Source: Thermoanaerobaculum aquaticum
GTDB taxonomy: Bacteria; Acidobacteriota; UBA4820
Direction: 5' to 3'
Length of the DNA: 44,200 nt
NCBI GenBank assembly: GCA_020722885.1
Contig: DYJZ01000005.1
Coordinates: 1 to 44,200, forward strand
The stretch's first letter is position 1. Each line of letters starts with the position of its first letter. The position numbers were made by a program, and so were the translations under genes. The notes under the pieces are model-generated. The model searched no databases, was not told where the DNA came from, and saw only the letters and a program-made list of their open reading frames with translations. Of this stretch, positions 1-44,200 are shown in pieces.

Positions 1-42
1 AGCAGTTGCAAACGAACTGATCTCCCTTTGTGAAAAGTTGAA

Positions 43-118
43 GATTGCTTCGCAAGACAAGGCTACGAAGAGGGGCTCGCAATGACAATTTTAGAAAGGG
101 CTCGCAATGACAGCGTTA
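43..118 (-). repeat. R1 repeat copy (GATTGCTTCG...CTCGCAATGACA type), 3' unit duplicated
   Basis: agattgcttcgcaagacaaggctacgaagaggggctcgcaatgacaattttagaaagggctcgcaatgacagcgtta; near-identical to 30021-30070. Confidence 0.8.
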
Positions 119-13674: not shown

Positions 13675-14373
13675 TTATTTTGATGACTGAACATTTGGTG
13701 ATTTATAATCAGCACGCTTGATTGTATATGCCTTTTTGATTGAGACGGGATTTTTAGGGCGACTGCCTTCAGGATCGGTTTGACTTTTTGGTCCAGCAGG
13801 CGCATTGACTATTTTGTCTACTACATCCATACCTTCAATAACTTTTCCAAAAGCAGTGTATTTATGGTCAAGAGATGAAGCATCTGCGACACAAATAAAA
13901 AATTGACTTGAGGCTGAGTCTGGGTCCATTGCTCTTGCCATGGATAAAATGCCTCTTGCGTGGTGAATGTCATTGAACTCTGCTTTCAAGGTAATTTCAG
14001 ATCCATCTGGACCGTAATTTCCACCTGTTCCCCATGTAGATGGGTCTCCCCCTTTGGTATTTGGGTCTCCTCCCTGAATCATAAAGCCTGGAATAACTCT
14101 GTGAAATTTTGTTCCATTGTAGAAGCCGCTTTTTGCAAGGTCAATAAAGTTTTTTACATGGTTTGGGGCTTTTTCGGGGAAAAATTCAAAAACTATCTTT
14201 CCGTAATCTGTTTCAAAAACAACTAATGTGTCCTTTAAATTTTCTGAAGTCATTTTTTTCTCCGTCTTGGTCTCTGTAGTTCCTTTTGTTGATTGATTTT
14301 TTTGCTGAGCGAAAGCAAAAATCCCGATTAAACCGACAACTAACAAAATAATGAGTTTCTTCATAATTAACAC
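13675..14373 (-). CDS. Secreted peptidyl-prolyl cis-trans isomerase (cyclophilin)
   Basis: Signal peptide plus DYGKIVFEFFPEKAPNHVKNFIDLAKSGFYNGTKFHRVIPGFMIQGGDP. Confidence 0.94.
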   Translation of the reverse strand: MLIMKKLIILLVVGLIGIFAFAQQKNQSTKGTTETKTEKKMTSENLKDTLVVFETDYGKIVFEFFPEKAPNHVKNFIDLAKSGFYNGTKFHRVIPGFMIQGGDPNTKGGDPSTWGTGGNYGPDGSEITLKAEFNDIHHARGILSMARAMDPDSASSQFFICVADASSLDHKYTAFGKVIEGMDVVDKIVNAPAGPKSQTDPEGSRPKNPVSIKKAYTIKRADYKSPNVQSSK

Positions 14374-14524
14374 CTCCTAAAATTTACAAAAGAAATTATA
14401 CCAAAAAAATCAACATAACAAAACATCTTATAGAAGTCCACAACATTTGATACTTTTTGGGAAGGAAAGACAGCATGACAAATTCATCTGGAACCCATCT
14501 ACTTTTGCACCGCTACCTCAACCT

Positions 14525-14636
14525 CTCATTGCGAGTGCTTCTTCGCAGCCCCCACTTACGAAGCAATCTCCCTCTTCCCAAACAAAGGAAGATCACTTCG
14601 TTTGTCAATGCCTCGAAGCAACCCCCGTGATGACAA
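14525..14636 (+). repeat. R1 repeat copy nested inside M2 copy A
   Basis: ctcattgcgag...acgaagcaatctccctcttcccaaacaaaggaagatcacttcg...gtgatgaca; matches the reverse complement of 29955-30065 over ~110 bp. Confidence 0.85.
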
Positions 14637-14651
14637 TCAATTGTTATTAAA

Positions 14652-14772
14652 ACCAATTTGACATCAACAGTAGGCAAATAAACTCTGCCCGTAGGCTGGG
14701 ATACATATCCCTTCCTGGGGGAGGATAGGTATCCTAACCTGCAAATTCATAAACGACGGATATCAAATTGGT
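14652..14772. repeat. Nested palindromic element inside M2 copy A
   Basis: Outer inverted repeat accaatttgacatc / gatatcaaattggt; inner arms gtaggctgggatacatatcc / ggataggtatcctaacctgc. Confidence 0.6.
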
Positions 14773-15048
14773 GTCATAACTATTAAAAATGTCTTCAAAA
14801 ATGGAAGTTCAGAATGTGATTGAGGGCAATCCGTTTCATCTTGCAGGTGAAAGGTTAAGGGGTGGAAAATAAAGAAACGAGGTTGTGGAAGCATTTCCCG
14901 CAGCCTCTACTAATTATTCTTTCATTGATATCATTAATAAGTTTTTTTCGTTCCTTTTGCACACTCAGAAAAGTTTTATGTGTTTCTGAACTTTTGCACT
15001 CTTTCAATTATATGAAAGATTAAGGTAAAATTACTTTTAGGAGGATAT

Positions 15049-29954: not shown

Positions 29955-30065
29955 TGTCATCACGAGGTTTACCTCGAGGCACTGACAACCGAAGTGATCT
30001 TCCTTGTTTAGGAAAAGGGAGATTGCTTCGTAAGAGAAGGCTACGAAGAGGGGCTCGCAATGACA
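29955..30065 (-). repeat. R1 repeat, full-length copy
   Basis: TGTCATCACGAG...CTCGCAATGACA inverted ends; multi-hairpin interior; near-identical to 14525-14636 in reverse complement. Confidence 0.85.
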
Positions 30066-35747: not shown

Positions 35748-35776
35748 AATATATATTCCGGAGTAAAATTTGTCAA
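35748..35776 (-). promoter_or_regulatory. Promoter of relA/spoT
   Basis: Minus strand TTGACA (35776-35771) - 17 nt - TATATT (35753-35748), then AGGAGG (35737-35732). Confidence 0.75.
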
Positions 35777-35781
35777 GGCAA

Positions 35782-36178
35782 TGTAGAAGTCCACAACATT
35801 TGAGATTTTTTGAAAAGGAAAGGCAGCAGGACAAATTCATTTTTGACTTCCATAAAAATGGGCAAAGGTTTCAAGTTCTTAAGGAATGTGCCTCAATCTT
35901 TTGTTCTTCGGTGCGCGCGAGCAAGGAATCAAAGCCGAAAGCGAACCTCCTTTAGCTTTCCTATTATAGCATTTGATGCCGCCAAAAACACTAAAAAGCC
36001 GCGTGCTCGTTCCTATTCTTCCTTTCAACGAAAATTCCCCCTTTCAGGAAAAAACGCAAAGGCTGTGGAAGCAATTCCCACAGCCTCTACTAATTATTCT
36101 TTCATTGATAACATAAATAAGTTTTTTTCGCTCCTTTTTCACCCTCAGAAAAGTCTTATGTGTTTCTGAACTTTTGCA
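35782..36178 (+). mobile_element. M2 MITE-like element copy B with candidate 5-bp duplication GGCAA
   Basis: Ends TGTAGAAGTCCACAACATTTGAGA / CAGAAAAGTCTTATGTGTTTCTGAACTTTTGCA (imperfect TIRs); GGCAA at 35777-35781 and 36179-36183. Confidence 0.75.
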
Positions 36179-36229
36179 GGCAATTTTCTTTTTCAAAATT
36201 CCTAAAAATAAGCAAATAAGGCAGTCAAC

Positions 36230-41588: not shown

Positions 41589-41672
41589 GAAGGCTGTTTC
41601 GCAGTGACAGTTTTTTCCAATAAGGAAGATTGCTTCGCCTGTTACAGCTCCGAAGGAGCACTCGCAATGACA
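41589..41672 (-). repeat. R1 repeat copy
   Basis: gtttcgcagtgacag...aggaagattgcttcgcctgttacagctccgaaggagcactcgcaatgacag. Confidence 0.75.
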
Positions 41673-41748: not shown

Positions 41749-41974
41749 TGCAAAAGTTCAGAAACATATGAGACTTTTCTGTGGAAAAAAGCTCGAAAGG
41801 AGAAAGGAGGATCGCTTTCTGCTTTAATTCCTGGCTCGCGCGCACCGAAGAACAAAAGGCGCAGGGACATTCCTAAAGAACTTGAAACATTTGCCCGTTT
41901 TTATGGAGGTCAAAAATGAATTTGTCTTGCTGCCTTTCCTTCCCAGAAAGTCTCAAATGTTGTGGACTTCTACA
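41749..41974 (-). mobile_element. M2 MITE-like element copy C, internally deleted
   Basis: TGCAAAAGTTCAGAAACATATGAGACTTTTCTG ... CAGAAAGTCTCAAATGTTGTGGACTTCTACA; inverted relative to copy B. Confidence 0.72.
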
Positions 41975-42085
41975 TCGCTTTGACAAATTAGTACAATTGA
42001 GAATAAAATAAAACCTGAAGTATTGTTGTAGGTGAGGTGTTTTGTGGCTAAAATCTTCGAAATTTTAAATTTGTAGGGAGTAAAT

Positions 42086-44200
42086 ATGAAAAGATTTTAT
42101 CTTTCACTTCTAATGCTGTTTTTAGCTGTTAATGTTTTTTGCGCTGAATGGGTTCCGGTTTCAAGCACCAAACCTGAAAAAGTGAAAATTGAGTTAATTT
42201 CAGATAGCGATGGTAAAACAACATTTTCAGTTTCCATACCAGGCTTTTTTGTTGATCGGGTTAAAATAGAGGGGGAAGAATATACGGTTATAAAATTGTA
42301 TGAAGGTTCCAACCTTATGGAGAAAGGGTGTCCAACTCTTCCTTTTGTTGTTGCAAACATTGCATTAAAGTCTGAAGGGGAGGTTGTTGTAAAGAGTGAG
42401 GAGTATGACACTTTCAGTATTAAAGTAGATAAGTATCTTCCTTCCAGAGGACATTTTACAAGGGATATTGATCCTGAGAGTGTTCCCTATGTTTTCTCTG
42501 AGGTATATGATAAAAACGGTTACTACCCTGAGGTTACAGCTACAGCAAGAGAGCCTTTTATATTGAGAAATGTTCGAGGAACGAATATTCAGGTTGTTCC
42601 ATTTCAATACAATCCTCAGACAGGGGAGATGAAAATACATCCAAAGGTTCTTGTTACAGTAAGAACAGAGGGAAGTGGCGGAAAGAACATACTAACATCT
42701 AAGATGAGGGTTCCAGAATCGATAGAATTTAAAAAAGTTTACAAAAGAGAATTTCTCAATTACGATTCTTTTTCACAAAGATACACAGCAATAAGTGAGG
42801 TAGGGAAACTTCTTATAATTACCTATGATTCTTTTTATGACTCAATGCTTCCGTTTATGTACTGGAAACTGCAAAAGGGGATACCAACGGAGATGGTAAA
42901 ACTTTCAACGATAGGGACGACTGCGGAGCAGGTACAGAGTTACATCCAGAACTACTACAACACAAATGGTGTGACCTACATTCTTCTTGTTGGAGATTCG
43001 GCGCAAATGCCATATTTTACGGGGAATGTAGGTAATTTCACAAGCGAACCTTCAGATCCCCGTTATGCTCTTCTTTCAGGAAGCGATAATTACCCGGAAG
43101 CGTTTGTTTCAAGATTTCCTGCGCAGAATACCACACAGGTTTCGGTGATGGTGAACAGAGTCATAAATTATGAAAAATATCCCGATTCATCAGCAACCTG
43201 GTATCATCAGGCTTTTGGAATAGGGTCAGATGAAGATGGTGAAACTGGTTTAAAAGATTGGCAAAGAATAAATTTGCTTAAAGACAAATTACTTGCCCCG
43301 AACTACAATTACACCCAATTTGACCAGATATTTGACCCTGGAGCAACTGCAACCCAGGTTTCCAATTCTGTTAACAGTGGAAGAGGAATAGGGCTATACA
43401 TAGGTCATGGTTCTCAGACTTCCTGGGGAACGACAGGTTTTTCCACAACCGATATAGCAAGTTTAACCAACACCAACATGTTTCCTTTCATACTTGATGT
43501 TGCCTGTGTAAATGGGAACTTTGCTTATTCAAGTGATTGCTTTGGAGAGAAATGGCTTCAGGTTGGAACATCATCAGAACCGAAAGGTGCCATAGCCATA
43601 TATGCCTCATCCACGAATCAGTCGTGGGTTCCACCCTGTGATGCACAATCTGCAAGCGTTGATTTGATAGTAAATGAAACATACCACACAGTAGGAGCAA
43701 TCTGTGTTAACGGATGTATGGCTGGAATGGATCTGTGGGATCCAACTGAAGCAGGGCAGCTTTATCAGCAATGGCACATATTCGGTGATGCTTCAACTAT
43801 GATTTACACTGATACTCCTACAGCAATGGTGGTGAATCACGATGGTTTTTTAGTGATAGGAGAAAATTCATATCAGGTTAATGTGGGGATCTCAAATGCT
43901 CTCTGCGCTCTTTATGACGAAACAGGTCACATTCTTTACGGACAAGCGTATACAGACTCAAGTGGAAATGCAACAATAACACTCAACCCGGTTCCTCAGG
44001 CAACTATGACTCTCACTTTAACGGTAACCGCTTTCAATAAAATGCCATATTTTGGAACTGTAGATGTAATGGCGCCTTCAGGTCCTTTTCTTGTTTATGC
44101 AGGAAAAGGCGAATTTACTGAGATAGTGGGGGATGGTGACACCAATTTTGACAGAGGTGAGAAGTGGTCTGTTGAGGTATATTTGAAAAATGTTGGTAGT
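42086..44200 (+). CDS. Gingipain-like C25 family cysteine peptidase, secreted (partial, runs off window)
   Basis: Open frame without stop to 44200; signal peptide MKRFYLSLLMLFLAVNVFCA; YILLVGDSAQMPYF, GIGLYIGHGSQTSWG (His), FILDVACVNGNFAYSSDCFGEKWL (Cys). Confidence 0.85.
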   Translation, partial: MKRFYLSLLMLFLAVNVFCAEWVPVSSTKPEKVKIELISDSDGKTTFSVSIPGFFVDRVKIEGEEYTVIKLYEGSNLMEKGCPTLPFVVANIALKSEGEVVVKSEEYDTFSIKVDKYLPSRGHFTRDIDPESVPYVFSEVYDKNGYYPEVTATAREPFILRNVRGTNIQVVPFQYNPQTGEMKIHPKVLVTVRTEGSGGKNILTSKMRVPESIEFKKVYKREFLNYDSFSQRYTAISEVGKLLIITYDSFYDSMLPFMYWKLQKGIPTEMVKLSTIGTTAEQVQSYIQNYYNTNGVTYILLVGDSAQMPYFTGNVGNFTSEPSDPRYALLSGSDNYPEAFVSRFPAQNTTQVSVMVNRVINYEKYPDSSATWYHQAFGIGSDEDGETGLKDWQRINLLKDKLLAPNYNYTQFDQIFDPGATATQVSNSVNSGRGIGLYIGHGSQTSWGTTGFSTTDIASLTNTNMFPFILDVACVNGNFAYSSDCFGEKWLQVGTSSEPKGAIAIYASSTNQSWVPPCDAQSASVDLIVNETYHTVGAICVNGCMAGMDLWDPTEAGQLYQQWHIFGDASTMIYTDTPTAMVVNHDGFLVIGENSYQVNVGISNALCALYDETGHILYGQAYTDSSGNATITLNPVPQATMTLTLTVTAFNKMPYFGTVDVMAPSGPFLVYAGKGEFTEIVGDGDTNFDRGEKWSVEVYLKNVGS

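Follow-up and report, generated by a model that had tools for sequence, protein, structure and literature searches.

Short IS481-derived elements of Thermoanaerobaculum aquaticum lie 5 bp upstream of predicted sigma70 promoters

In the genome of Thermoanaerobaculum aquaticum, nearly every copy of a short repeat family, M2, has its left end 5 bp ahead of the -35 box belonging to a predicted sigma70 promoter. The same rule is common to intact IS481 elements in E. coli, to one on a Klebsiella plasmid, and to IS481 elements in four other genomes. Three M2 copies are located in the window, that is, the whole stretch of 44,200 nucleotides that was analysed. An initial annotation of this stretch had described them as a MITE-like family; the spacing from the -35 box, which it had missed, is their most interesting property.

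The M2 family and its three copies in the window

A search of the 1.9-Mb genome, assembled in 107 contigs, with the 397-bp copy B as query yielded 56 matching pieces, and the 25-bp left end, allowing up to 3 mismatches, was found at 46 sites, compared with 0 for a reversed-pattern control. Because of these numbers, the repetition of the M2 copies is not a matter of chance. The initial annotation had allowed that the three copies might be the only ones, or might have no boundaries in common, but 46 left ends are present genome-wide, and the copies have precise ends in common and, where both ends are readable, a 5-bp duplication signal. Its description of a non-autonomous, MITE-like element with TG...CA ends and a 5-bp duplication holds across the genome: like MITEs, the M2 copies are short, present in many copies, bounded by terminal inverted repeats, devoid of a transposase, and accompanied by target duplications. 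The same left-end pattern (25 bp, up to 3 mismatches) occurs at 1 site in a congener (G002), and at none in the other congener or in two relatives that are further removed. Across 396 genomes of the phylum, this end was detected in this genome, in one congener, and, in a match at the 3-mismatch limit, in G121, and nowhere else. Matches of the pattern scan in unrelated organisms were isolated singles and were judged to be chance matches.

All three copies in the window were found at the coordinates and in the orientations first described. Copy B (397 bp, 35782..36178, plus strand) is a non-autonomous IS481-type element with its left end at 35782 and its right end at 36178; the left end corresponds to the C-terminal side of the transposase and is IRR-like. 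The flanking GGCAA reported for this copy is indeed present on both sides, at 35777..35781 and 36179..36183, and the left duplication doubles as the 5-bp gap between the element and the -35 box TTGACA (35771..35776, minus strand) of a predicted relA/SpoT promoter, whose -10 box TATATT (35748..35753, minus strand) follows after a 17-bp spacer. Copy A (570 bp, 14429..14998, plus strand) has a different interior, which includes another repeat, a palindrome of about 130 bp. At a distance of 5 bp from copy A lies the -35 box TTTTGT (14418..14423, minus strand), which is followed, after a 17-bp spacer, by the -10 box TATAAT (14395..14400, minus strand) of the predicted promoter serving a cyclophilin-type peptidyl-prolyl isomerase gene (13675-14373, minus strand). 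Copy C (226 bp, 41749..41974, minus strand, left end at 41974) belongs to a short subfamily; it is separated by 5 bp from a TTGACA -35 box (41980..41985, plus strand), and the -10 box TAAAAT (42004..42009, plus strand) lies beyond an 18-bp spacer, forming the predicted promoter of a gene that starts near 42087 on the plus strand. Copies A and C had been said to show no clear duplication, and their flanks agree at only 2 of 5 bases (A) and 0 of 5 bases (C).

Target duplications were evaluated in the 19 M2 copies with both ends readable, for lengths from 2 to 12 and with permuted pairs as the control. At a length of 5 bp, the mean flank match was 0.54 compared with 0.30 for permuted pairs (z = 5.0), and exact pairs were present in 4 of the 19 copies, with 0.2 expected. 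A length of 4 gave a weaker signal (z = 3.1) and 0 exact pairs, and the remaining lengths gave no significant signal in these 19 copies.

The copies differ mainly in their interiors. Six copies of 218-226 bp, copy C among them, have one internal junction in common, and because this junction is identical in all six, the short form has spread as a unit and is an amplified subfamily, not a product of chance deletions. Copy C is thus inverted, as had been proposed, but its internal deletion is not its own. Longer copies have mosaic interiors pieced together from other repeats. The palindromic repeat of about 130 bp in copy A (ATACCAATTTGACATC...GATGTCAAATTGGTGT, window positions 14652-14779) has about 20 copies in the genome. 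Intergenic repeats with GTCATTGCGAG and CGAAGCAATC ends are found at window positions 42-87, 14590-14635, 30020-30065, and 41627-41672, and also inside longer M2 copies. A further module, ending in GACAGCAGTG, is part of the long copies L036, L047, L052, and L054, and on contig C65 an M2 left end directly faces it.

Relationship of M2 to the IS481 family

The M2 ends are terminal inverted repeats of the form TG(T)...(A)CA and share homology with those of IS481 members; both ends match IS481 elements of other genera. Read in reverse, the left 30 bp correspond to the last codons of a transposase of the IS481 family, which overlap its terminal repeat: the reverse complement of the left end encodes KKSQMLWTST, and IS481 C-termini elsewhere read SNMLWTLT and SHMLWTYT. 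The right end, TGCAAAAGTTCAGAAACACATAAGACT, matches the left repeat TGCAGAAGTTCAGATACATATTGGACT of an IS481 element in another genome (G287). Because of the C-terminal codons at the left end and the match of the right end to an IS481 repeat, M2 is, as judged from sequence homology, a family of non-autonomous IS481 derivatives in which the left end represents the C-terminal end of the transposase. The 5-bp duplication is of the length also found with the E. coli IS481 element; for eukaryotic relatives, duplications of about 4, 15, or 25 bp have been described (PMC10045372).

In some IS481 members, the transposase frame may pass through the right repeat with no stop codon inside the element (PMC4803752), and the same is seen in the E. 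coli copies. Since M2 is geneless, this trait speaks for the relatives and for the homology of its left end and only indirectly for M2 itself.

The initial annotation had suggested a search for a transposase with similar ends, and IS481 can now be named as the putative parent, of which a decayed remnant is present in the home genome. Transposase remnants there are bounded by TGTATAAGTTAAAAACATTTGCGACATT, which is akin to the M2 left end, and a remnant peptide, assembled as a composite of two decayed copies, matched rve_3 with E = 2e-8 and was 43.6% identical to IS481 transposases. Four ends of the remnant type could be read, three of which lie about 5 bp from a promoter. On contig C39, one copy of the palindromic repeat found in copy A sits within the remnant of the IS481 transposase.

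A search for rve domains and an inspection of unpaired left ends brought up no intact transposase in this draft genome, so that the enzyme which moved M2 is not seen here; repeats are often lost from draft assemblies. The left ends that lack a right end mostly stop at contig edges or in mosaic interiors. A pair of ends 2.0 kb apart on contig C72 was considered as an autonomous M2 element and rejected: no transposase can be recognised in it, and the similarity of its left end is weak. In the congener G002, locus L142 on contig C10 encodes a 410-residue rve-type transposase of another kind.

Insertion upstream of promoters in T. aquaticum and other bacteria

An ungapped alignment of 44 M2 left flanks, read outward from the element, gave the pattern N5-TTGaca-N17-TAtAaT, that of a sigma70 promoter, with TTG at flank positions 6-8 and TATAAT at positions 29-34. 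The -35 box starts directly beyond the 5-bp duplication, and the promoter is directed away from the element. In statistics that cover about 450 kb of this genome and use promoters predicted from sequence, a simple sigma70 score at offset 5 averaged 9.07 out of 12, compared with 4.3 at random positions and 4.79 +/- 0.21 for shuffled flanks, and was much lower at other offsets. A score of at least 8 was reached by 39 of the 44 left flanks and by 1.6% of the background. The offset of the -35 box is exactly 5 in 35 of 44 flanks, and the spacer is 17 bp in 31 of 44, with a range from 15 to 19. The right flanks show no peak in the promoter score and nothing resembling the left-flank pattern.

Genes follow these promoters closely: the start of a tRNA or of an open reading frame preceded by a ribosome-binding site lies within 200 bp beyond the left flank in 42 of 44 cases (median 66 bp), and five tRNA genes, for tRNA-Gln, -Met, -Gly, -Ser, and -Thr, are included. 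Five left ends that were found later had not been used for deriving the rule, and four of them face a promoter. An exception, the left end on contig C65, has a TTGACA without a good -10 box and looks rearranged. The single M2 copy in G002 faces a promoter-like sequence at a less clear offset.

An intact IS481 element of 1,096 bp, similar to ISKpn28, is present in E. coli; matches were obtained in 1,219 of 5,426 E. coli genomes, at up to 38 places per genome. In E. coli and Klebsiella, 24 junctions were read, and a 25th (L223) was left out. Exact 5-bp target duplications are found at 14 distinct junction sequences (about 12 loci), and in all 14 the right repeat is followed after 5 bp by a -35-like hexamer and, 17 bp further on, by a -10 box. 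The hexamer is TTGnnn in 13 of the 14, and the promoter score ranges from 6 to 10, with a mean of 8.0 compared with a background of 3.9 and a peak only at offset 5. The loci include the sthA, ybaQ, and dinQ regions as well as promoters, presumably of antisense RNAs, at hokA, hokB, hokD, ldr, and a plasmid hok locus, the hok and ldr promoters being assigned by their position beside annotated toxin genes. Three exceptions (L216, L222, and L225) lack a duplication and appear to have been rearranged; in two of the three, a promoter is missing as well. IS481 elements in four further genomes (G043, G055, G239, and G003) end 4-5 bp ahead of promoter-like sequences.

On the Klebsiella plasmid NZ_CP082291.1, ISKpn28 is located at a promoter beside a hok-type toxin gene (L224), a site also occupied, on an F plasmid, by the E. 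coli element. In E. coli copies such as L207 and L212, the transposase frame continues past the right repeat, and the in-frame TGA of the target -35 box (TTGA) provides its stop codon. The supply of a stop codon was considered as the cause of the promoter rule and rejected, since the geneless M2 copies obey the rule too.

Target recognition and comparison with known systems

Taken together, we consider it highly probable that M2 consists of IS481 derivatives from the ISKpn28 subgroup and that IS481-type transposases insert in one orientation just upstream of sigma70 promoters, probably by way of promoter-bound RNA polymerase. An IS481 ancestor, from a subgroup that would include ISKpn28 and its E. 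coli relatives, would have kept both terminal repeats and lost nearly all of its transposase gene. The transposase would select promoters as targets in a single orientation, and, less certainly, it may recognise promoter DNA held by RNA polymerase with sigma70. The insertion point lies immediately before the -35 box, where the stretch bound by sigma region 4 has its upstream limit, so that the promoter survives and all sequence upstream of it is displaced.

The transposase might by itself read a bipartite promoter (TTGnnn-17-TAnnnT) on naked DNA, with RNA polymerase uninvolved. The fixed 5-bp distance and the orientation would fit this equally well, no other part of the site is as constant as the TTG in the -35 box, and two E. 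coli copies (L218 and L220) lie inside annotated genes beside promoter-like sequences. We nevertheless regard it as rather unlikely: the distance between the -35 and -10 boxes varies from 15 to 19, as in sigma70 promoters, and very poor hexamers are tolerated, such as the TTTTGT at copy A, with a gene or tRNA still following, whereas a stricter motif would be expected of a protein reading DNA alone. Variable spacer lengths and the acceptance of poor hexamers are both reminiscent of recognition by sigma70, so we favour contact of the transposase with the RNA polymerase holoenzyme over direct reading and hold it to be slightly more probable than not.

Random insertion followed by selection, which would retain harmless copies just outside promoters, could account for the intergenic location of M2 copies and for the spared promoters, and old copies have had time for such filtering. 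It cannot, however, explain why 35 of 44 copies have one orientation and a distance of exactly 5 bp; other harmless intergenic sites would not stay empty, the right ends follow no such rule, and the near-identical, presumably recent E. coli copies obey the rule too, which makes this explanation very unlikely.

Promoter boxes beside nearly every left end could also mean that the promoter is part of the element, with the repeat unit extending through N5-TTGACA-N17-TATAAT as a mobile promoter. The flanks, however, have only the hexamers in common, with unrelated spacers, and the 5-bp duplication sets the element boundary at TGTA. Empty sites refute the idea, to which we give almost no weight. The initial annotation had looked to such sites in related genomes as a sign of mobility, and at the relA/SpoT gene of three relatives (G001, G002, and G003) the corresponding promoter is kept and the element is absent, which is an indirect sign of mobility. 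Because the promoter is conserved without the element in these relatives, it predates the insertion and was not brought by M2. The sthA promoter is likewise present in E. coli genomes that have no element there, and 80% or more of the joined empty site is matched in 3,889 E. coli genomes.

An ordinary, immobile element between genes, such as a REP or a regulatory, terminator-like repeat, would suit the missing transposase, the hairpin-like interior, and the intergenic location, but is scarcely credible given the precise TG...CA ends, the 5-bp duplications, the many unrelated sites, and the IS481-homologous ends.

IS481 elements and MITEs are already known; what seems new is the oriented insertion before promoters, as the open-access papers searched describe no such behaviour for IS481 elements or MITEs. 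The sequence preferences of bacterial insertion sequences are generally described as weak or short. A transposase able to locate promoters to the exact base would represent a new targeting principle and would explain recurrent rewiring of gene regulation without promoter breakage. Such an enzyme might yield a tool for marking promoters, and targeting is directly testable, with intact copies present in E. coli. The broader proposal, that the transposases of a whole IS481 subgroup, found in at least two phyla, dock on RNA polymerase-sigma70 at promoters and place the element in one orientation immediately ahead of the -35 box, is in our judgement evenly balanced.

The closest known relatives are ISKpn28 and the ISKpn28-like E. 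coli element, which resemble M2 in their TGT...ACA ends, their repeats (TGTATGGGTCCACCACAT versus TGTAGAAGTCCACAACAT), their 5-bp duplications, the overlap of the transposase C-terminus with the right repeat, and the same promoter position. They are, however, intact elements of about 1.1 kb with a transposase, whereas M2 copies are 0.2-0.6 kb long and have none. Bacterial MITEs derived from insertion sequences are likewise short, lack a transposase, and have IS-family terminal inverted repeats, target duplications, and many copies; M2 differs by its strict promoter position and orientation and by its mosaic, variable interiors. ISKpn27, an IS481-family element upstream of blaKPC-2, also has TTGACA at its junction upstream of a gene, but its protein is about 26% identical to the E. 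coli one and the TTGACA may be part of the element end itself, and it was not counted as an example of the promoter rule. The yeast retrotransposon Ty3, the closest parallel in its way of working, targets RNA polymerase III genes through TFIIIB (PMC5911963); its integrase keeps a short, constant spacing between the element and the signals for transcription start. Ty3 is a eukaryotic retroelement that uses a Pol III factor, and no membership is claimed; if the proposed mechanism is true, M2 and its IS481 relatives would be a bacterial counterpart of Ty3 targeting, leaving the promoter intact but severed from its upstream regulators.
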